Positions 3,673 to 42,847 of a DNA stretch of 45,537 nucleotides are shown here, piece after piece (positions within the stretch are counted from its first letter, which is position 1; each line of letters begins with the position of its first letter). The stretch is from a virus. The position numbers and the translations under genes are program-made. The notes under the pieces were generated by a model. It was given only the letters and a program-made list of their open reading frames with translations, did no database searches and was not told where the DNA came from. The stretch covers positions 1 through 45,537 of the IMG/VR virus record IMGVR_UViG_3300035698_006541; one strand, 5' to 3'.

Positions 3673-4152
3673 TTAGGTTAGTTGAGGAAATACAGTAGAT
3701 TTAATCTCGTGGTGTCTAGGGTTGTGGTCAGTGATTTCAGCTAGGGTTATTTTTACCTTAGCTCCCATAGGGTATGCATCATACTGGCCATTGAATTGAT
3801 GCCATGTATATTCAGCCTCCATAACTAAGAACCTTCTACCTGTGTATAGAGAGTCACCCCATAACAGTAGTACCGGATGCTTCTTTCCATAGGCTCCATC
3901 ATTCTTAGATAAAGCTTCCAGCTCTCTACAGGTCTTAACTACATCGTCTCGAAAGCCGCTATCACAATATAGGGTGAACTCAAACTTTAATAAATATTCA
4001 CCCCCTGTATAATGGTACTTGGGGATGTTAGCCCCCATTGATTTAATTGCAGCGTGGGTGGTAGACGGTTTAACTTTAAGCTCCAGAGGTATAGTCTGTA
4101 ACGCAATTGATAACCTTGTTACCGTGTCGAGTATCTGAATTTTTGCTGGCAT
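3673..4152 (-). CDS. Tube-initiator/CIS tube-like baseplate protein
   Basis: A 159-residue beta-rich protein (EYLLKFEFTLYCDSG; RRFLVMEAEYTWHQFNGQ; AKVKITLAEI). The pattern resembles the contractile-injection-system tube-like domain that connects the tail tube to the hub, a role played by gp54/gp48 in T4 and Afp7-type proteins elsewhere. It sits between tape measure and LysM protein, the expected slot. Its start codon overlaps the tape-measure stop by one base. The family call is from memory of pattern and order, so moderate. Confidence 0.65.
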   Translation of the reverse strand: MPAKIQILDTVTRLSIALQTIPLELKVKPSTTHAAIKSMGANIPKYHYTGGEYLLKFEFTLYCDSGFRDDVVKTCRELEALSKNDGAYGKKHPVLLLWGDSLYTGRRFLVMEAEYTWHQFNGQYDAYPMGAKVKITLAEITDHNPRHHEIKSTVFPQLT

Positions 4153-6173
4153 TATCCGAAACCTAGTTCTTGGTAAATGTCCTCATCATTAGCTGAGTTA
4201 ATCTTCTTACTCATGGCTAACTCCCCATCCACATGTATGTTTATAACCTGAGCCTGTGCAACTGGACCTTGACCATCGGCATCTGCACCGGAGCCCATAA
4301 AGCCATCCCATGTTTTTCCAAATCGGATTGTATTATCATGGTTGTATGCGCCTGAGTTCTTCTTGTACTTATCTATGCTGATTTCCTTTGAAGGGTCAAT
4401 ATTAAAGCTAGGCTCTTCTGGCCCATCCATTATACCTAACCAAACTAATTTATCAACCACCCAATCAAGCAGCAAATCAAACTGGTGTACAATCCATGCA
4501 AAGACTATAGCTATACCGGTGAATAGAACCATTGCAGCGGTTAATATAGCTGCACCGATTGCAACTGCTGCTGCCATCTCTGCCACCCCTGTTAGGATAG
4601 ACCCAACTACATAGGTTATCTTAGCCATTAAACCCATAGTACTCCACATATAAGCTGCACCTCCAGCTGCACCTCCATAGGAAGCCCCAGCTGCAATTCC
4701 GCCAGCTGCAGTGGCAGCACCTGCAAGGTTAGATGCAGTGGCAATAGCATAGAGTGTTCTAAGATAAGCAAGAGCTCCAGTGTTAGCTGTAGCCCAAGCC
4801 CCAGTTGCAGTTGCCGCAAAGGTGGCTTGCATACCGACCAGAACTGTATAAGCCATGTGTATCTGAGTTAGGAAGAAGGCAAAGGTTCCTACCACTACTA
4901 AGACTGTTCCCACTACCAGAAGAAGGGCTCCGAATAATCCCACTATACCAGATATAATATTACCTAGTATGGGTATCTTCATAATCCAGCTGATAAAGTT
5001 AATCATGTATCGAGTAGCTGTAAGTATCGGTCTAACTATCCAACCCATACTTTCTGATACCGCATCTTGAAAGTCAGACCAAGCTGAAGTCAATAGTAGT
5101 ACATCACCATGAACGTTGTCCAACCTCTTCCTTGCAACCTCTAGGGCATAACCTGGCTCAATGTTGTGGAGGTCATCAATAAAGTCTTTGTAACTATCGA
5201 GCTCTCTAAGAAGTAGGGAACCAGCTCTCTTACCCCTTACCCCGAATATCTCTTGTAAGATAGCTTGCTTCTCAATCGTACCCATCCCTTGAAGGCTAGA
5301 CTTCATCTTTGTAAGAATTTCAGCAATAGGTAGTAGGTTTCCATGAGCATCAGCAAGGTCTCCCTTACCCATACCAATAGCATCTAGTGCCCATAAATCT
5401 CCTTTGGTTGCTCGTTCAGATGCTGCGGTAGTTAAATACCTCATCATGTTCTCCGTAGCGGTACCTGCCATAGAGGACTGAATACCCGCATTACCCATAG
5501 CCATAATCATAGCTGTAGTTTCCTCCAGTCCTACATTCAAGTCCATTGCAGTAGATGCAGTATACTTAATTGCTTCACCAAGGTCAAAGATGTTCGTGTT
5601 AGCACCTAATGTACCAGCAGCAAGGACGTCCGCAACTCTTGCAGACTCTGTGGCTGCAATATTATAGGACTTCATTATGTTGGTCATAATATCTGCAGTT
5701 CCACCCTTACCCTCAATCATGTGGTCAGTTGCTGAACCCAGAGCCACTACCGCATCCATTGTACCTATGATGTCTTTTCTGTTTACCCCAGCCATACCCA
5801 TGAACTTCATGGAGTCAGCTACTTGGTTCAGTGTGAAGATAGAGCTCTTTGCAACGGATGACGCCTTGCTTTCTAATTGCTCAGCTGTTGCAGTTGTATC
5901 GGAGGCAATTGCATATACTCCAGCCATTGTATACCTGTAGGTGGCTGCTGCTTTAATCATGGAACCCAACCCTCCAACTATACCTGCACCGGCAGCTGCC
6001 ATCATAGCACCCCCTGTCATCAAAGCCATCTGCTGTTGGCGTTGGAGGTTCATTGCTGATACGCCCATTTGAACCATAGCGCCATCAACAGCACGGGCAC
6101 CTGCCGTGAAGTGGTCGATTAACGAAACCGTTAACCCAATACCCATACGTGATGAACCTGAAAATATTGGCAT
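4152..6173 (-). CDS. Tail tape measure protein (TP901-like)
   Basis: A 673-residue protein. The N-terminal third contains the TP901-type core with repeated Ala/Gly/Met-rich helices (TMAGVYAIASDTTATAEQLE, QVADSMKFMGMAGV, ETTAMIMAMGNAGIQSSMAG). Two strongly hydrophobic stretches follow at about residues 398-440 and 515-565, the segments thought to insert into the host membrane on DNA injection. It sets tail length. By the usual scaling of about 0.15 nm per residue, the tail would be near 100 nm (inference). It starts two bases after the stop of the chaperone frameshift product, the canonical arrangement. Confidence 0.92.
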   Translation of the reverse strand: MPIFSGSSRMGIGLTVSLIDHFTAGARAVDGAMVQMGVSAMNLQRQQQMALMTGGAMMAAAGAGIVGGLGSMIKAAATYRYTMAGVYAIASDTTATAEQLESKASSVAKSSIFTLNQVADSMKFMGMAGVNRKDIIGTMDAVVALGSATDHMIEGKGGTADIMTNIMKSYNIAATESARVADVLAAGTLGANTNIFDLGEAIKYTASTAMDLNVGLEETTAMIMAMGNAGIQSSMAGTATENMMRYLTTAASERATKGDLWALDAIGMGKGDLADAHGNLLPIAEILTKMKSSLQGMGTIEKQAILQEIFGVRGKRAGSLLLRELDSYKDFIDDLHNIEPGYALEVARKRLDNVHGDVLLLTSAWSDFQDAVSESMGWIVRPILTATRYMINFISWIMKIPILGNIISGIVGLFGALLLVVGTVLVVVGTFAFFLTQIHMAYTVLVGMQATFAATATGAWATANTGALAYLRTLYAIATASNLAGAATAAGGIAAGASYGGAAGGAAYMWSTMGLMAKITYVVGSILTGVAEMAAAVAIGAAILTAAMVLFTGIAIVFAWIVHQFDLLLDWVVDKLVWLGIMDGPEEPSFNIDPSKEISIDKYKKNSGAYNHDNTIRFGKTWDGFMGSGADADGQGPVAQAQVINIHVDGELAMSKKINSANDEDIYQELGFG

Positions 6174-6175
6174 GA

Positions 6176-7119
6176 TTATCTTCGTTTTTTAGCCTCAGCT
6201 TCTCTGAACTCAGCTAGGCTTTTAAATAAGTTGAAATACTGCAAACGCCGGCTTAAAGGCATCTGAAAGAACTCTGTCTCCGTGAAGCTTAAGCCGGCGT
6301 CTGATAGGACTACTATGTCTATAAGGAGCCGATGGTCGTTGGAAAAAAAAACTCTTCTAAAGCAATAGCTGGTATTAAGTCGGTCTTTCCTTTTGGAGAA
6401 GTTATAGATATAGGCATTGCAAAGCTGGTATCATATAGCTTGAACTGGCCTCTTATTTCAGATAGTTCCCTTGCAGTAAACTCCGCAAAGTTTTCAAGAG
6501 GTATGAATTTATCCTGTCTACGGAGTTCCATCTTTCTCATGGTGAACTCATCATTCTTACTGAGCAGCCCCCGGACCTTCTTAAGCATTGTTTTCTCTCC
6601 ATAGGAAGTCATCAGTGACCATCGTATGAATTTCCCACTAGTAGTCTCATATTCAAACTCAATCTGTTGGCCTTTAGGGTAAGGTCTTATAGATACTGAG
6701 CTAAGGGATTGTAATTCCTCTTCGCTTAAGTCACCCCATCTTTCTAATGGAGCTATAAACTTATTCAAATCCTCTGTGTACTCAATACCGGCAGGGTCAG
6801 CTGTAAACTCTCCATCGTGTTTGTACTTGAAGTTAAGCTCACTTCCTAATGATAAGATACGGGCTCTAAGAGCAGCATAATATTTATCAGCAATAGGCCA
6901 CTTAGCAATATCATCCGCAGTGTATAGCTTCTTGGGTTCCCCATTACTATCCACGTGAAGAGGATTAGTAGAGCCTGTAATAATCCTAGAAAGGAATATA
7001 TTAAGGTGGGTACCATTTTGGATGTGCTCTGTTTGAGACAGTGCAACCTCATCTTCACCATTCATCTCCCGTATAGAGAGGTCATAGCCAGAGGGTAATC
7101 TAAAAGTTTCTGTGTTCAT
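6176..7119 (-). CDS. Predicted -1 frameshift fusion of the tail assembly chaperone (G-GT type)
   Basis: If ribosomes slip back one base on the nine-T run at 6343-6351, translation continues for 55 further codons to TAA at 6176-6178, two bases before the tape-measure ATG. The added peptide begins SNDHRLLIDIVVLSDAGL and ends in a charged helix, SLAEFREAEAKKRR, like the T part of known G-GT pairs. Without the shift about 145 bases would be noncoding inside a gap-free operon. Seen: slippery run, open frame and exact fit. Known: programmed -1 shifts are widespread at this locus in tailed phages. Inferred: that the shift occurs. Confidence 0.72.
6242..6303 (-). repeat. Inverted repeat downstream of the slip site
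   Basis: ACGCCGGCTTAA and its exact complement flank a 32-base loop. The stem extends to 15 pairs if one G-T pair is allowed. It is far more GC-rich than its surroundings and starts about 40 bases after the slip run, inside the frameshift-only coding part. It may act on frameshifting or message stability, though the spacing is longer than in classical stimulators. Confidence 0.6.
6319..7119 (-). CDS. Tail assembly chaperone, short (zero-frame) product
   Basis: A 266-residue soluble, charged protein lying between tail tube and tape measure, the invariant position of tail assembly chaperones (lambda gpG, P2 gpE). These bind the tape measure during tail assembly and do not enter the virion. Its last codons read through a run of nine T on the coding strand, then CCA ACG ACC and end in TAG. 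The frame shifted by -1 at that run stays open to the tape-measure gene. The N-terminus (TFRLPSGYDLSIREMNGEDE) resembles phage-tail proteins that bind the tube or tape measure. Confidence 0.75.
   Translation of the reverse strand: MNTETFRLPSGYDLSIREMNGEDEVALSQTEHIQNGTHLNIFLSRIITGSTNPLHVDSNGEPKKLYTADDIAKWPIADKYYAALRARILSLGSELNFKYKHDGEFTADPAGIEYTEDLNKFIAPLERWGDLSEEELQSLSSVSIRPYPKGQQIEFEYETTSGKFIRWSLMTSYGEKTMLKKVRGLLSKNDEFTMRKMELRRQDKFIPLENFAEFTARELSEIRGQFKLYDTSFAMPISITSPKGKTDLIPAIALEEFFFPTTIGSL
6343..6351 (-). promoter_or_regulatory. Slippery run for -1 ribosomal frameshifting
   Basis: Nine consecutive T on the coding (minus) strand, read as three Phe codons in frame 0 after GAG. Slippage by -1 keeps the Phe pairing and places TCC next. 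The zero-frame stop lies seven codons further on, and the -1 frame stays open for 55 codons. Confidence 0.7.
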
Positions 7120-7204: not shown

Positions 7205-7663
7205 TTAGATTAACTTTGCTGGCTGGTCTACGCACCATTCGATTTCTTCAAGAGTATTCTCCGAGGCCATTCTATCAAGTTCAATAGCACCCAATTTGCA
7301 AGGCCAAGCTCCCTCATATCGGTAGTGGTCTAAGGGAGTTACTCCATCGGGTGCAAAATGTGTCACTGTGATAGTGGTCTTATATACTGAAGGTAGTTGA
7401 CCACCTGCAGTGTATACATCTTGAATATCATTCAGGTATTGGAAGAACTGGCTATCATTACCATCAGCAACGGATAGCTTAGTCATTACTAACCTACCGA
7501 ACTTAGCTCGGCCTCCGGTCTTAACATCGAAGTTAAAATCCCCGTGAGTTACCTCATCAATCTCGAAAGATGGAAGTGTTACCTTCTGGCATAGAAATGC
7601 ATTCATGCCGGGTATGTTGATTGTGAAGTTAAACTTCTTCTTAGGGTTAGCTATTTGTGCCAT
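7205..7663 (-). CDS. Tail tube protein (gp19-like)
   Basis: A 152-residue protein of typical tube length. The N-terminus KKKFNFTINIPGMNAFLCQKVTLPSFEID and the later FGRLVMTKLSVADGNDSQFF match the T4 gp19-like tube family, which stacks as hexameric rings inside the sheath. The C-terminus LGAIELDRMASENTLEEIEW is also typical. It is 26 bases after the sheath gene, the standard sheath-tube order, and is followed by a terminator hairpin. Confidence 0.9.
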   Translation of the reverse strand: MAQIANPKKKFNFTINIPGMNAFLCQKVTLPSFEIDEVTHGDFNFDVKTGGRAKFGRLVMTKLSVADGNDSQFFQYLNDIQDVYTAGGQLPSVYKTTITVTHFAPDGVTPLDHYRYEGAWPCKLGAIELDRMASENTLEEIEWCVDQPAKLI

Positions 7664-7689: not shown

Positions 7690-9555
7690 TTACTGGCTTA
7701 CTGAGAAAGTTACATTACTCGGTGTAACGGTAATGTTCAAGGTGAACTCAGTCATACTCGGTATTGCATTGATGTAAAGCTCAACCTTATACTTACCTAA
7801 TCCGACATCAGTGGCATTGTTTACCTCTAAATCCTCAAGTGAAGTTTTGTATTGGTCGCCCTTCCATTCGTAGTCATAAAGAGCCCGAGCATTCTTGGAC
7901 TTAAGGAAGTCTAGGAATGGTTTAACCTCATTATACATATTCTCCCATGTAAGGAAATCGTTGGGTTGTTCTAGGTATCTTTCAAGAGTTGGTCGTAGGC
8001 TTTTCTCAATAAAGATGATTAACCTTACAATAGAGTTCTGTGAAAGTTTAGAATAAGACTGTTGGGCAGAATGATTACCCCATAGCAACGTTTTGTTGTA
8101 TCGGTCTATAACCATGTTAATTTCCCTGTTCGCAAGTCCATTCAATGCACTAAGCTGTCCATTTCCTCCAAAGTTATTCACTACTCCTACTACTCCATCA
8201 ATTGGCCCTAGCTCAGGACCTGCAAAACTTCTCCATGCTCCATATTGGTTCTCCGCTCTAGTGGATAAAGCCATTACATCTGCAAGCTCAGAAATTTCAG
8301 TTAGGATATTTGTGTTTGGGTGGTTAATCTTTAATCCACCTGCATATACTGCAGCATAAGGAGTGTCAATGGATGTCGCAGCTCTCGCAGCAATCAACTG
8401 AGCCTCAGTAGCATTAGAGTTTGCAAGGTGTGCAAAGAATTGAAGGTCTTTCCTAGAAGCGGCATATACTGCCCCAGCTTGGTTGTAGGTTGCATCTGAA
8501 ATCTCCGGTGCTGCTATTACCATACTATCATTGTGGCCAGAGAAAGCATGAATACCCGTACCTACGGAGTTTCCAACATAGTCAGTTACCGCAACTGAGG
8601 TTCCATCTGAGCCTCCAACGAATTGGTAGGTTTGGTTATAAGGTCTTACAGGTGCAGTTAAAAGGCTAAGGTCTGCATAGACTACATTTAAGAATACAGA
8701 GCCCGTCACCACATCATCCAAGTAGTGGCTTTCCGAAGTTAGGGGTGTTCCATCTATAAGAATGTTTTGATAAGTCTCAGAAAGGCCTGGCTCAGCAAGA
8801 TGGTCAATGGTTAAGTTAAATGCATTGGTGTTTCCATTGCTTGCAGCGGAGATGGTTACTGATACGTTATTATAATCAGCCCCTTCGTGTTTCATGGTAA
8901 ATCCGAAGATTAACTCTCCAGCGGCATTCACTACCCCTTGAACTGATGCCTTAGCAACTGTTGCCTGTGAAGCTCCAAGGGTTACTACCCCAGCACTACC
9001 TCCACCGGTGGTTAGTACGTTGGTTGCCTGTGTTGATACAATCACAATCTGCCTTACCAAACCTGGCCCTGCAGCTACTACCCATGCATCAGCAATTGTA
9101 GGTTGGAGAAGGAGCTCAGTTACAATGTCATCCATTGTTTCATCTGAACCTACCGCATAAGTAACTGCATTTATAGGTGTACCATCAACAGTCAGGTCAT
9201 ATTCATTCAATGCTACCAAGGCAGCAGAGAAGGTTAATAACTGAGCATATCCAATTGAGGCTTTGGTTGCAGTTAAAGTAGAAGGAGTGGTTACATCAGT
9301 ATAGTGTGCAACCCTTGATACTCTCAGTGCAGCTCCTTTATCTAATGCTCTCATCGCAAGCAATGGGAAGTCAGAAGATGTAAGTAGGCCCCCAAACAAT
9401 CTCTTGAATTGTGAAGAGTTACGAATAACAGTTGATGGGTCAGCAACTGGCCCTCTCTTGGTTATCCCTTGCATGAAAACAATCCCCTTTACCAGCTGTG
9501 CAACTGAGAAAGAGAGGTCGGTAACATTGATGTTTAGTTGAGCAGTATTAGGCAT
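7690..9555 (-). CDS. Contractile tail sheath protein
   Basis: A 621-residue protein. The N-terminal region (ITKRGPVADPSTVIRNSSQFKR, then GGLLTSSDFPLLAMRALDKGA) is the conserved start of phage sheath proteins. The middle is beta-rich and variable. The C-terminal domain (INMVIDRYNKTLLWGNHSAQ, VRLIIFIEKSLRPTLERYLE and the final YINAIPSMTEFTLNITV) is the conserved core that interlocks neighbouring subunits. The sheath contracts around the tube to drive it through the cell envelope. It defines the virion as a contractile-tailed type. Confidence 0.95.
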   Translation of the reverse strand: MPNTAQLNINVTDLSFSVAQLVKGIVFMQGITKRGPVADPSTVIRNSSQFKRLFGGLLTSSDFPLLAMRALDKGAALRVSRVAHYTDVTTPSTLTATKASIGYAQLLTFSAALVALNEYDLTVDGTPINAVTYAVGSDETMDDIVTELLLQPTIADAWVVAAGPGLVRQIVIVSTQATNVLTTGGGSAGVVTLGASQATVAKASVQGVVNAAGELIFGFTMKHEGADYNNVSVTISAASNGNTNAFNLTIDHLAEPGLSETYQNILIDGTPLTSESHYLDDVVTGSVFLNVVYADLSLLTAPVRPYNQTYQFVGGSDGTSVAVTDYVGNSVGTGIHAFSGHNDSMVIAAPEISDATYNQAGAVYAASRKDLQFFAHLANSNATEAQLIAARAATSIDTPYAAVYAGGLKINHPNTNILTEISELADVMALSTRAENQYGAWRSFAGPELGPIDGVVGVVNNFGGNGQLSALNGLANREINMVIDRYNKTLLWGNHSAQQSYSKLSQNSIVRLIIFIEKSLRPTLERYLEQPNDFLTWENMYNEVKPFLDFLKSKNARALYDYEWKGDQYKTSLEDLEVNNATDVGLGKYKVELYINAIPSMTEFTLNITVTPSNVTFSVSQ

Positions 9556-10109: not shown

Positions 10110-12338
10110 CTATGGCGATTTAAGAAGGGTAGTATTTATACCCATACCTTGTACAGTTAAAGCATCCTCTAAAAACCAGTTCAGAATAATAAGCTTTAAG
10201 TTATCAATTGAATATGGAATAGAATTTGAACCAGTATGTACAGCATAACTCCAACATTCGGATGTGTCAGTGGATAGAGTGGTCCATAGGCCGGGTCCAG
10301 TTGGGTCCTGGCCGGTGGCAGCTGGGTCTATCTTAGTAAGGCAAAATTTAGTTCTCACATAGGCCGAGGTATTATTAAGACCTACTCCTGTATAATAATC
10401 TCCCCTAGTTATGGTTATATCAAAGTCTATAAAAGCATCGCTGTCTATAATTACAGTGTCTAAGAAAAACACCCAAGACTCCCCTCCATCTGAAGCTAAC
10501 TTAACCTGAATTGCTAATGTATCATTAGTTCCTGAGTGGTCTAATTTCCAAGTACCTGACATTTTAACAGCCTCCCCTTCTACTACTAATAAGGAAGGGT
10601 CTACCTCATAGTAGTATAAAGTATCTGCATGGTGTATTGAGTCTGTTAATAATTGCAGTGTGCTTACAGTTTCCAGTGAGGCATCTCCCTGTGCCCCAGT
10701 TGGGCCAGTAGCCCCAGTTGGGCCAGTAGCCCCAGTAGGTCCAGATGTAGCAGCAGTCCATGATAAGTTACCCAACCCGTCTGTTGTAATTACCTCGGTG
10801 TCAGCTCCATCACTCATGGGTAATATATAGGAAGAGTTTACCCTTACGCCAGAAGCAGCTTCAAGCTCAATCCTGTCAACCATTGAGGTAATTGTAACAT
10901 CTCCACCATTTGCGGTTATATCAGTAGTACCCGCATCTACATTAATATTATTGGTGCTTACAATATCTACATCACCCATAAATGAGGCAATGGTAACATC
11001 ATTCATTGGGAAGAGGGTTGCGGTACCACTATTGTTAGTAACCTCAAAACTAGCCTCCACTATCAAGGGTTCATCTATAAAAACAGTATCTGAATTTAAT
11101 AACCCTATCTTATTAGCATCTAACCTTTGCCAGAATAAGGCCGGACCAGTGGGTCCTGTTGGTCCTGTTGGTCCTGTTGGTCCTGTTACTCCCATTATAT
11201 TGAATGAGAAATTCCAGGCCATACCCCCATAATAGAATATATCTCCTTGTGACCTTGCACAACCTGTATTATATACCAGCATATAATCTCCGTCCACCAT
11301 ACCTGTTGGGGGTGTACAGGCATCAGCATAAAACCAGGTTGACCCATCATCTCCATCTGCCCCATTAGTACCAGCAGTACCATTAGCTCCTTGAGGTCCC
11401 ATCGGGCCCATAGCTCCTGTAGCTCCCGTATAAGTGGTAGTGTCTATGTGTAGTTGTCCAAAGTTATCAATCCTAATATAGCCTGTGTCATTAACTTGAA
11501 CCCCCGCAATGGAGGCTAACTCAGGTAGAAGGTAGGTACTATTTGTATTTATTCTTAGGTAATCCCGTCCTGTTTGGTGGTTTGCTACTGCAAAACTTCT
11601 TTCTTCTCTAATCCCATTTATAGTGTCATGCTCGATACGTGCTATAACCCCCTCATCTCTTTTTACAAATAAGGTTTGTTCATTCTTACTATTACCATTT
11701 GCTAAATTACCAGAGCGTATTAAGACCCCTCCTGGCCATGTAGATACTTGGGATGAGTTGGTATTAGAGGTATCTAAACTTAACATTAAGGGGTATGACT
11801 GACTGGACTGACCATCATCAATTATACCCATTACATGAAGTATAGTGTCATTCTGGTCAGTACTATAAAAAGAAGAACCCGTTAAAGTTAAGGAGCCCCC
11901 AAGTTGGGGTATGCTTATATTTTCTGAGCCTATTCTTAACCAATCTTCTGTCCCACCTATTCTTATATCACCATGGCTTACAACAAAACTCCCTGTACTA
12001 GTATTAGGTTTAAGCCCCCCGCCACTATCTGACCATAGGCTACTACCCCCACCTCCAGTCAGAGGAACATAAGCTGCTCCGTTCCAAACATAAGGAGGGT
12101 TAACTAGAAATATAGTGTCGGTTGAAAACAGCCTATCCCGCATGTAATTCTCATCCAATAATAGGGCTGAGTTATTAATGATGTCATGTAATGCTTCTCT
12201 TAGTACACTAATCTTTAGCTTCTGGTTAGAGGCCAACTTCGTGTCTATCATAGTGTTTAACTGACTTCGTACGGGTTGAGCTGTTGCACATCCGGCTATC
12301 AATACAGTTAGTAGTAGAAAGCTTAATATTCTTTTCAT
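10110..12338 (-). CDS. Collagen-like fibre protein with a lipoprotein signal peptide
   Basis: About 742 residues if started at ATG 12338. This start is chosen because it begins an ideal signal peptide, MKRILSFLLLTVLIAGCATA, with lipobox I-A-G-Cys17. A longer frame upstream lies inside the previous gene and is rejected. Three G-x-y collagen blocks lie at about residues 302-330, 383-398 and 531-551, separated by beta-rich Ser/Thr/Asp sequence as in fibres and host-binding proteins. The gene follows the tail-terminator-like gene and precedes the holin. It may be a virion fibre or a lipid-anchored surface protein made in infected cells. The lipobox is unusual for a virion protein. Confidence 0.75.
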   Translation of the reverse strand: MKRILSFLLLTVLIAGCATAQPVRSQLNTMIDTKLASNQKLKISVLREALHDIINNSALLLDENYMRDRLFSTDTIFLVNPPYVWNGAAYVPLTGGGGSSLWSDSGGGLKPNTSTGSFVVSHGDIRIGGTEDWLRIGSENISIPQLGGSLTLTGSSFYSTDQNDTILHVMGIIDDGQSSQSYPLMLSLDTSNTNSSQVSTWPGGVLIRSGNLANGNSKNEQTLFVKRDEGVIARIEHDTINGIREERSFAVANHQTGRDYLRINTNSTYLLPELASIAGVQVNDTGYIRIDNFGQLHIDTTTYTGATGAMGPMGPQGANGTAGTNGADGDDGSTWFYADACTPPTGMVDGDYMLVYNTGCARSQGDIFYYGGMAWNFSFNIMGVTGPTGPTGPTGPTGPALFWQRLDANKIGLLNSDTVFIDEPLIVEASFEVTNNSGTATLFPMNDVTIASFMGDVDIVSTNNINVDAGTTDITANGGDVTITSMVDRIELEAASGVRVNSSYILPMSDGADTEVITTDGLGNLSWTAATSGPTGATGPTGATGPTGAQGDASLETVSTLQLLTDSIHHADTLYYYEVDPSLLVVEGEAVKMSGTWKLDHSGTNDTLAIQVKLASDGGESWVFFLDTVIIDSDAFIDFDITITRGDYYTGVGLNNTSAYVRTKFCLTKIDPAATGQDPTGPGLWTTLSTDTSECWSYAVHTGSNSIPYSIDNLKLIILNWFLEDALTVQGMGINTTLLKSP

Positions 12339-12357
12339 ACTTGGGTATTTAATTATA

Positions 12358-13197
12358 CTATAAAAAATCTGTGTCAAAATCATCCTTGTCGAAGTCCTCA
12401 TGGCTGAAGTCATAATTACTCCCACTAGAGCCTGAGCCGGAACTTCCGTCGGGTGTTTTATCACAACTACCAACTTTCATAGTTGATACCTGTTGAGGTA
12501 GTACCCCCATAAGGGTATCAACTGTGATACACTGAATAGGTTGCACAGTTCCAATCTCTTCTGGTACGGATAAGCAAAGGTCAGGTATCTTAAAAGTAAC
12601 GATGTAGTTATTCACTCCATCCTTTGGTTCGTTCTCTTCTATGTGTCCTACTAGCTCCATGACAAACCTGTCTTGGTTGCCGTCTTTGTCATAGTAATCT
12701 ACATATCCAATACTAGGAAATCCTTGAGCAATAATAGCGTTCATAACCCTATCCTGTTTTGCCGAGCGGTTAGATAGGATAAAATCATAGTAGGCATCTA
12801 CTATGCTATTCTTTTGCTTCTTGACTACATATCTAGTGATGGGGTTTCCAGAACCAGAACCACTCCCTTCTCCCTCAGTTGCATATACCGCTTCATTATA
12901 AGGATTAGGAGGTAAGCCTATTTCTAAGCTGGGTAGAAATCTTTTCTTAACAATAACAATCCGTGGTACTCTCTTTAAGTTCTTGTTGTCTGAGCTTCCA
13001 ACTCCAAAGAGGTCTATAGCAAAACCCTTATCAGCAGAGACTGCATCTATAGCTCCTTGCCACGTTGCTTCGCCCGCAGCATCATTAGTAATACCCACAA
13101 TATCAGGCAAATAACCATAGCTTACAAGTAATAGCCGCAGGGTCTCAAATAAAGACCTCTCCAATCGCTCCTGTGATATGGATAGTGGTGCTGGCAT
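12358..13197 (-). CDS. Tail terminator/neck-type protein
   Basis: A 279-residue protein. The first 50 residues are helical (RLERSLFETLRLLLVSYGYL), followed by alternating beta strands (VPRIVIVKKRFLP; RFVMELVGHIEENEP; NNYIVTFKIPDLCL). It has Gly/Ser linkers near residue 112 and near the C-terminus, and a very acidic tail (DKDDFDTDFL). It follows the gp10-like gene and lies upstream of the sheath, where tail-terminator (gpU/gp15-like) proteins sit. The function is inferred from position and the alpha/beta pattern only. Confidence 0.5.
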   Translation of the reverse strand: MPAPLSISQERLERSLFETLRLLLVSYGYLPDIVGITNDAAGEATWQGAIDAVSADKGFAIDLFGVGSSDNKNLKRVPRIVIVKKRFLPSLEIGLPPNPYNEAVYATEGEGSGSGSGNPITRYVVKKQKNSIVDAYYDFILSNRSAKQDRVMNAIIAQGFPSIGYVDYYDKDGNQDRFVMELVGHIEENEPKDGVNNYIVTFKIPDLCLSVPEEIGTVQPIQCITVDTLMGVLPQQVSTMKVGSCDKTPDGSSGSGSSGSNYDFSHEDFDKDDFDTDFL

Positions 13198-24905: not shown

Positions 24906-25210
24906 AGCTAGCTGAGAAGAGCTGTAGAGATAAGGGTATTGATTACAATCACCTTATTAATTTACGCTTTCTAGCTGAAATTCCCTATATAGACAACCAT
25001 GTAGCATCACATTGCCCTAACTTTGTTGTTGCATCTCTAGCTGTTGGAAGAATACCCTTCTTTTGCGCAGGTAATCAGGTAATGAATGTTCTTAGATATA
25101 GGCTTGATATAATTAGCAGAGATGCTAATACCATGGATACGGTCAGGAAAGAGCTTAACCGTTTTTACCAGGCTTTAAGTATGCAGCCCGTCTCGGAACA
25201 CTTGGAATAA
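24878..25210 (+). CDS. Protein of unknown function, convergent with a glycosyltransferase gene
   Basis: A 110-residue protein with helical segments (LKLAEKSCRDKGID, QVMNVLRYRLDII, TVRKELNRFYQAL) and a hydrophobic centre (FVVASLAVGRIPFF). Its last 56 bases overlap, on the opposite strand, the C-terminal codons of the glycosyltransferase gene that ends at 25155. No family recognised. Confidence 0.6.
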   Translation: MGEGSIRKLKLAEKSCRDKGIDYNHLINLRFLAEIPYIDNHVASHCPNFVVASLAVGRIPFFCAGNQVMNVLRYRLDIISRDANTMDTVRKELNRFYQALSMQPVSEHLE

Positions 25211-26621
25211 AGTTATTGTAGACGGTCTTTATGGGGTTAAAACCCTCAACAGGTTTTTCCTCTTCCACCTTCTTTTTAGGAAGCACCTTCTTAACTGGGG
25301 GTACGGCATCTATAAAATGCGTATTTATATGGGTATCGAAGTTTCGGTGGGACTTATTAATATCACTAAAACCTGCCTCTGCTTTAATCAACATCGGCAT
25401 CAGCGCATAACAATTGTAATTGGGTTGTACCTTCTGAGCTATTATTCTATCTATTGCAATGGGGCTATTGTTTAATAGCTCTATAAGAATGTTATACATT
25501 CTCTTGTAAACGATATATCCGAAGCAACCATAACTCTCAATTACTTTACCAACCCCGTTACGAATATGGGTCATTGGAGCTTTAGGAAAGTGGCCTAGGT
25601 AAAGTATATCAACATTCTTTGGTACTACCCTCATAACGCTATCCAACCTAAGGTCAAAATCCTTACACAGTTGTATATCGTCCTCGAAGATGATTACATG
25701 GTCTAATTTACGCCGTTTAGCTTCTCTAATAGTATTTAGATGGGAATAAAGTGTTGCAAACTCCCCTGTATTATTCCCGTTGAAACTTAGTGGAGTTTTT
25801 GGGATGGTGTTTCTATCTATAGCCTCGAACCTAACGATGTTATGTCGGGAGCTTGATAGGTTAGCCTCCATCTTCAATTTTCTATCAGTCCGCCTATCAA
25901 GGTTAATATAATAACCCTGTGATATGTTCTTGTTAAGTTTGCCTCTCAACTGGAACTGAGGCTTAGCCTCACCCCACTTAAGCCTTATAGACTTCATATA
26001 AGCTATTCTTTCGGGGCTTCCCAATGGATTAGTCTTGGTTAGATTGTTACCTGTATAATAGGCAAACGCTAAAGACTCTTGAAGCTCTACTATCCTGCCG
26101 TTGAATAGGTTACAGAGTTTATACATGTACCCTGTATCAGCCCCATGTCTAACCTCGTCAAATAGACCCGCCACTTTATAAGCCTCTCTGCTTACACACA
26201 TCATGGAGTGTCCCATCATGCTATACGCTACCTTACCTGTTTTCAAGTCTATTCTAGTGTACAAGCAATTAGATACAACATATTTAGTTCCCATAAGAAC
26301 TGAAACCTGTTTTCGTATTCTGTCAGGGTGGAACTGATCATCAGCTCCTAATATCATAAAGAAATCCCAGTCGCCTTTGTACGTTAACCCCACGTTAAGG
26401 GATTTATATGTTCCTTGGTTTTTTGGGCTATGGATTACGATTACATCGCTTCTTTTGAATGGAGAAAGTACTTTTCGGGTATCATCTGTACTACAATCAT
26501 CTACTACGATAATCTCCACTAACCCAAAATTTTGATTAAGACAACTTCGGATTGCAGCTAAAATAGTGTCTTGCGCATTATAGCAGGGTATTATAACCCG
26601 TATCTTAGGCTCTTCTTTCAT
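25155..26621 (-). CDS. Bifunctional glycosyltransferase (GT2 + GT25)
   Basis: A 488-residue two-domain protein. Residues 1-220 form a GT2 family domain: IRVIIPCYNAQDTILAAIRS start, nucleotide-binding VVDDCSTDD (39-47) and GADD (92-95) in place of the DxD site. Residues 236-420 form a GT25 (LPS glycosyltransferase) domain: GYYINLDRRTDR (236-247), HVIIFEDDIQL (308-318) and a C-terminal region ending near 430. A Lys/Glu-rich tail follows. It probably adds two sugars in sequence to a glycan. It follows a GT2 gene by a 17-base overlap. Confidence 0.85.
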   Translation of the reverse strand: MKEEPKIRVIIPCYNAQDTILAAIRSCLNQNFGLVEIIVVDDCSTDDTRKVLSPFKRSDVIVIHSPKNQGTYKSLNVGLTYKGDWDFFMILGADDQFHPDRIRKQVSVLMGTKYVVSNCLYTRIDLKTGKVAYSMMGHSMMCVSREAYKVAGLFDEVRHGADTGYMYKLCNLFNGRIVELQESLAFAYYTGNNLTKTNPLGSPERIAYMKSIRLKWGEAKPQFQLRGKLNKNISQGYYINLDRRTDRKLKMEANLSSSRHNIVRFEAIDRNTIPKTPLSFNGNNTGEFATLYSHLNTIREAKRRKLDHVIIFEDDIQLCKDFDLRLDSVMRVVPKNVDILYLGHFPKAPMTHIRNGVGKVIESYGCFGYIVYKRMYNILIELLNNSPIAIDRIIAQKVQPNYNCYALMPMLIKAEAGFSDINKSHRNFDTHINTHFIDAVPPVKKVLPKKKVEEEKPVEGFNPIKTVYNNFIPSVPRRAAYLKPGKNG

Positions 26622-42634: not shown

Positions 42635-42847
42635 TTAATCAGGTGGGAGGTTATCTCCATGCACCCTTTTCAGGTTCTCCATATCCTTAAAGGCTTTGTA
42701 CTCATTTGTCCTTTGCTCCGAGTAGTACCTCTCTTTTCCAAAATTAATATAGTACCAGTTCTCTTCCCAAAAAACCTTCCATACCTTGGTAACATTCCAT
42801 GCAGCTGGGTTACCTTTTACTAACCTCTCTGTTGTAGATTTTGCCAT
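42635..42847 (-). CDS. Small Trp/Tyr-rich protein
   Basis: A 70-residue basic, aromatic-rich protein (AAWNVTKVWKVFWEENWYYI). Single-gene unit between promoters e and d. No family recognised. Confidence 0.6.
   Translation of the reverse strand: MAKSTTERLVKGNPAAWNVTKVWKVFWEENWYYINFGKERYYSEQRTNEYKAFKDMENLKRVHGDNLPPD

Follow-up and report, generated by a model that had tools for sequence, protein, structure and literature searches.

The tail gene cluster of the window (the whole stretch of DNA analysed, 45,537 bases, positions 1 to 45,537 of IMG/VR virus record IMGVR_UViG_3300035698_006541) raises the question of whether the open reading frame that precedes the tape-measure gene is continued in a second, overlapping frame and, if so, whether the ribosome or the RNA polymerase makes the shift. 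Profile matches give the minus-strand order sheath, tube, chaperone ORF (7119-6319) and tape measure, and the chaperone gene therefore sits between the tail tube and tape-measure genes, as in G/GT-type systems:

7690..9555, minus strand: tail sheath gene (contractile tail)
7205..7663, minus strand: tail tube gene, T4 gp19-like, directly upstream of the chaperone
6322..7119, minus strand: zero-frame ORF of the putative tail assembly chaperone, short form, T4 gp26-like, 266 aa, stop codon at 6321-6319
6343..6351, minus strand: slip site, nine T's read as TTT TTT TTT, with the heptamer T TTT TTT at 6349-6343
6179..6343, minus strand: -1 frame extension, like the C-terminus of T4 gp51, 55 codons, stop TAA at 6178-6176
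4152..6173, minus strand: tape-measure protein gene, 673 aa (phrog_1533, E 3e-43; PF10145, E 7e-29)

Direct reading confirms two elements of the initial annotation, namely a nine-T run within the chaperone ORF (6351-6343) and a -1 frame that stays open for 55 codons, its stop (6178-6176) being separated from the tape-measure ATG (6173) by two bases. A third element has to be corrected, as the run does not end the zero frame: seven sense codons (CCA ACG ACC ATC GGC TCC TTA) intervene before TAG at 6321-6319. The run is the sole one of at least nine identical bases in the window, and it supplies an in-frame X_XXY_YYZ heptamer (T_TTT_TTT) near the end of the short ORF. The fusion protein, or long form, has 314 aa, compared with 266 aa for the short form, and the peptide of the extension reads SNDHRLL...AKKRR. 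A -1 frame open for at least 55 codons is met from 31 of 6631 random codons in the window's genes (0.5%), so that the opening alone is only moderately surprising; its conservation in relatives and the profile match of the extension, both described below, place it beyond chance.

Relatives of the window chaperone were recovered from three sources: three human-gut records matched by tblastn at 28-30% identity, 27 IMG/VR loci found by an alignment-based scan, and two further loci from a genome collection, on contigs binned into a Dysosmobacter and a Spirochaetaceae MAG. Identity to the window chaperone is about 24-33% where measured. In all 30 relatives from phage and viral collections, T TTT TTC stands in frame at the corresponding codons, the zero frame stops 4-6 codons past the slip, and the -1 frame is open and homologous; the two MAG loci share these features (32/32 in total), and in one relative (L019) the extension ends early at the contig end. 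The heptamer is invariant even though Phe codon use in these genes is mixed (TTT 222 : TTC 193). The -1 frame is conserved as protein, and the comparison of both frames that had been proposed as a check came out in favour of the shift, the extension being stop-free in 31 relatives and in 80 cyanophage-type contigs. Moreover, a profile of the extension built without the window finds the window's own extension (E 1.1e-4) as the sole credible match among 1213 six-frame ORFs. A codon-position test within the window group gives a weak signal (15/7/14; L002 versus L003, 12/3/16), with one equal-length pair. Overall, the conserved heptamer, zero-frame stop and homologous extension in 32 relatives, together with the gene order, support a real -1 fusion of the chaperone, as far as comparison of sequences can indicate it. 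Viral contigs searched with the single sequences of the window's chaperone, sheath, tube and tape measure gave no match, these searches found no near relative carrying T9, and the plasmid collection gave no match.

The same relatives bear on a technical explanation, in which the run is really T10 and the gene one uninterrupted ORF, or in which the -1 opening is accidental. Homopolymers are error-prone, and the record of phage IME-SM1, from the same family, seems to be one T short of the six of phage Bhz51. However, the relatives (T TTT TTC TTT CC) have the window's 9-base length, and the window keeps in its zero frame the Pro codon that is conserved behind FF(Y/F) (FFFP vs FFYP), which makes an assembly or sequencing artefact very improbable.

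On its own, the window chaperone falls below the Pfam and PHROG thresholds in profile searches. Its relatives match weakly PF12322 and phrog_150, the family of T4 gp26 and gp51; phrog_150 was searched in the records of 22 relatives, and 7 of them match it at the chaperone gene (E 1e-6 to 1e-3). T4 gp51 covers phrog_150 positions 3-281 and T4 gp26 only 10-236, and the two are therefore a long (gp51) and a short (gp26) paralogue. In cyanophage S-PM2 the phrog_150 profile is split across two frames: gp26 ends in CAG TCT TTT TTC GCA TAA, and its -1 frame enters the annotated 58-residue 'gp51'. A search of IMG/VR for relatives of S-PM2 gp26 found 276, of which the best 80 were fetched; among these best 80, T TTT TTC lies one codon before the stop in 80/80, and the -1 extension is 'gp51' in 80/80. 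In the cyanophage extensions past the zero-frame stop, substitutions fall 1263/845/3599 on -1-frame codon positions 1/2/3, counted over pairs that are not independent. The arrangement seen in S-PM2 also occurs in the T4-superfamily phages phiN3, Astolliot, avDM12, ValKK3, RHph_N34 and P-SSM2.

Profile-profile comparison of the fused window group with the cyanophage fused set plus gp51 and gp26 gives E 2.7e-9, with the fused proteins of the two groups aligned end to end and their slip points coinciding; it is through this cyanophage alignment that the long form's C-terminal extension is homologous to that of gp51. Significance in hhalign is reached only with the cyanophage fused set, comparisons with single T4 gp26 or gp51, or with six-member sets, without cyanophages being not significant, as is that of the extension alone with T4 gp51 as a single sequence. 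An AlphaFold2 model of the short form (266 aa) has pLDDT 89 and resembles predicted proteins labelled 'T4-like baseplate hub assembly' or hub at a TM of about 0.63, the best fold match with a T4-like name reaching E 2e-12. A fold search of the PDB returned no solved structure at E <= 0.001, its top row being the HK97 tail assembly chaperone at an E of 0.39, which was not counted. As part of the overall explanation, the window gene very probably encodes a tail assembly chaperone of T4 gp26/gp51 type, in a phage with a contractile tail.

The cyanophage data also speak to a reading in which two genes are translated separately and no fusion is made, the downstream stretch having its own start, as annotated for cyanophage gp51. 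The window extension does hold an in-frame ATG (CAG ATG CCT), and in databases the cyanophage counterpart is entered as a gene of its own that starts at an internal ATG. An internal start would nevertheless leave only about 30 residues and lose the conserved first part, homology reaches the slip point in all relatives, T4 gp51 is a single long protein spanning both parts, and the heptamer would not be expected to stay invariant under the mixed Phe codon use noted above. Two unfused genes are accordingly hardly credible here.

Three observations were made on annotated records along the way. The cyanophage 'gp51 baseplate hub assembly catalyst' (L051:1691-1864, L143:2223-2396, L052-L131) corresponds to the -1 extension of gp26, and because that extension lies behind T TTT TTC in 80/80 of the best 80 of 276 relatives, it is probably mis-annotated as a gene of its own, judging from these sequences; an earlier study described cyanophage gp51 as missing ~200 residues at its start, with no mention of a frameshift (Sullivan 2010, PMC3037559). 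At the slip, Stenotrophomonas phage IME-SM1 (L137) shows five T's against six in its near relative Bhz51 (L144:1317-1335; GAT TTT TTC GGC TGA); a sequencing error in the homopolymer is the probable cause, and it makes the annotated gp26 longer. Finally, in two Ackermannviridae phages, phiMAM1 (L139) and BX-1 (L142), and in Cygsa01 (L140), the -1 extension is open and the slip candidate is GTT TTC, GTT TTT or ATT TTC with no preceding T, a different shift signal.

How the window came to have nine T's is suggested by alignment of the slip region. The relatives read GAT TTT TTC TTT CC or GAT TTT TTC TAT CC and the window GAG TTT TTT TTT CC, so that two changes, the synonymous TTC to TTT and GAT to GAG, convert the one site to the other; on this alignment, T TTT TTC TTT CC has drifted into the nine-T form. 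The relatives' T TTT TTC starts one codon upstream of the window's T TTT TTT, whose site has moved one codon downstream because a G (GAG, not GAT) precedes the aligned first slip codon. In Sinorhizobium phage phiN3, the related chaperone has AAT TTT TTT ACT at the slip, and U_UUU_UUU therefore occurs elsewhere in the T4 gp26/gp51 family. The homopolymer slip site, called less usual in the initial annotation, is an unusual nine-T version that still reads as a normal X_XXY_YYZ heptamer. A limited literature search found no earlier report of the nine-T slip site or of the structured RNA, which lies just downstream:

6206..6337, minus strand: structured RNA predicted by folding, directly after the slip site
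6303-6289 / 6256-6242, minus strand: inner 15-bp stem, strong
6337-6327 / 6215-6206, minus strand: outer closing stem, weaker

The 138 nt after the window's T's fold at -40.8 kcal/mol (z -4.19, with 0 of 200 shuffles as stable), and the sole perfect inverted repeat of at least 12 bp (loop <= 60) in the window lies in this structure. A local peak of stability is seen in both groups: in 95-nt segments directly after the slip, the window group has a mean z of -2.48 (-0.11 to -1.12 at ten other offsets) and the cyanophages one of -1.94 (+0.09 to -1.26 at the other offsets). Stems of at least 8 bp starting 4-12 nt downstream are found in 16 of 26 sequences vs 23% of controls (p 3e-5, 125-nt folds), the window itself showing one only with 145-nt folds. 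In a subgroup of five sequences, a small set, 9 of 24 pairs show a compensatory double change, the outer stem lying ~6 nt past the heptamer. In the window, the strong stem stands ~40 nt downstream, inside a weaker outer stem from ~+6, and its layout therefore differs from the commonest one. An Rfam search returned no real match.

These features have to be weighed against transcriptional slippage, in which RNA polymerase would add one U (or drop two) on T9, so that a fraction of the mRNA encodes the fusion and the ribosome reads it unslipped. The window's run exceeds the at least 7 T's required by E. coli RNA polymerase, an enzyme that prefers T runs for insertion, T9 in mxiE being an established example (PMC6260861); the window is also the only chaperone-family member here with a run longer than 7, and its run has the length of an mxiE-type homopolymer (about nine or more A/T). 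A long homopolymer is not conserved in the relatives, however: the run at the slip is six T's then C in all 112 relatives counted (30/30 of the window group and 82/82 further ones), and the window keeps a very stable downstream RNA structure for which transcriptional slippage has no need. Six T's and a C are too short for transcriptional slippage, which argues that the ancestral mechanism was ribosomal, and we regard slippage of the polymerase in this phage as unlikely. The related proposal that the drift of U_UUU_UUC into T9 has moved recoding in this phage, in whole or in part, from the ribosome to transcription, with the ratio of products set at the mRNA, is to be given an equally low probability.

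The best explanation, which we hold to be very likely, is instead a ribosomal -1 slip on U_UUU_UUU, aided by downstream structure, in a T4 gp26/gp51-type chaperone made in a short and a long form. It builds on what was observed, namely the anatomy of the sequence, the order of the genes, the conservation of heptamer and -1 frame, the homology of the two parts and the peak in RNA structure; from these we infer that the shift is ribosomal in this phage, how frequent it is and that the protein acts as a chaperone. Most ribosomes would read the zero frame and yield the 266-aa short form, while a minority would slip one base back where the U9 run ends, on U_UUU_UUU, with the aid of the RNA structure just downstream, and yield the 314-aa long form, whose C-terminal domain has 55 residues. 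If lambda gpG/gpGT is taken as the model, the tape-measure protein would then be coated by many short molecules and a few long ones, with tube subunits recruited by the additional domain of the long form; the part that both forms play in controlling tail length is borrowed from that system (review PMC5009743). Counting against this explanation, U_UUU_UUU shifts less than A_AAA_AAG in E. coli (PMC5009743), the slip site of the window has moved by one codon, the T9 run also favours slippage of RNA polymerase (PMC6260861), the window protein alone stays below the profile thresholds, and the searches returned no near relative with T9.

Chaperones made by a -1 frameshift are established in tailed phages (Xu, Hendrix and Duda 2004, as cited in PMC8008677 and PMC9024508), in agreement with the initial annotation on the conservation of this device. 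A 2016 review names T4 as the exception (PMC5009743); chaperone genes of T4-like phages were identified later (Vladimirov, Gautam & Davidson 2022, Virology 566:9-15, as cited in PMC10885494 and PMC12846349), with one short and one long chaperone gene in some of them according to the same citing papers, which also describe T-rich slip sites in other phages. The window is a further case of this known tail-chaperone frameshift.

The closest likeness is to T4 gp26/gp51 (PF12322 / phrog_150) in fold family, in short and long forms and in action beside the tape measure, the C-terminal extension of the long form being roughly 45-60 residues in T4-type proteins as in the window. T4 has two separate paralogous genes, whereas the window, cyanophages and several T4-superfamily phages have one gene and a -1 shift. 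The window protein also shares no more than about 25-30% identity with its nearest relatives. With the gp26 and 'gp51' of cyanophages (Kyanoviridae, e.g. S-PM2 and P-SSM2), the window shares the end-to-end homologous -1 extension, a putative tape-measure gene next to it and the local RNA-structure peak; it differs in that their zero-frame stop follows 1 codon after the slip instead of 7, their heptamer ends in C instead of T, and their genomes are much larger. Lambda gpG/gpGT is similar in its site between tube and tape measure, its -1 shift shortly before the short ORF ends and a low-abundance long form, but its slip heptamer differs, and the likeness is one of arrangement, no sequence relation being seen. 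The gpG-type short form is moreover a small protein, compared with about 260 aa in the window. Compared by description, Vandenendeviridae / Andersonviridae (phage Adele, PMC12846349) resemble the window in a T-rich -1 shift and in short and long chaperones, with a different slip motif (GTTTTT in Adele).

An uncultured group of contractile phages is hereby placed in the T4-type chaperone family, in which one heptamer is kept among very divergent phages, namely the window group, cyanophages and phages of Rhizobiales, Pseudomonas, Aeromonas and Vibrio, while T4 keeps two genes. Cyanophage 'gp51' is indicated to be the frameshifted tail of gp26 and not a stand-alone gene, and the structured RNA after the slip makes the frameshift directly testable with a reporter.

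As to the host, SD-like motifs stand upstream of only 3 of 27 window genes (minus strand), a low count that is compatible with a Bacteroidota host and not specific to it. One promoter-like site, TTTG-N21-TANNTTTG, lies at 42771 on the minus strand, and a tRNA scan of the window found none. An ORF at 25155-26621 has GtrB-like and glucosyltransferase profile matches (phrog_841, phrog_2835) and is possibly a surface-sugar-modifying gene. The 787-aa tail-fibre ORF at 10110-12473, with a TTG start, overlaps the upstream ORF at 12358-13197 by 116 bases, and its real start probably lies further in.
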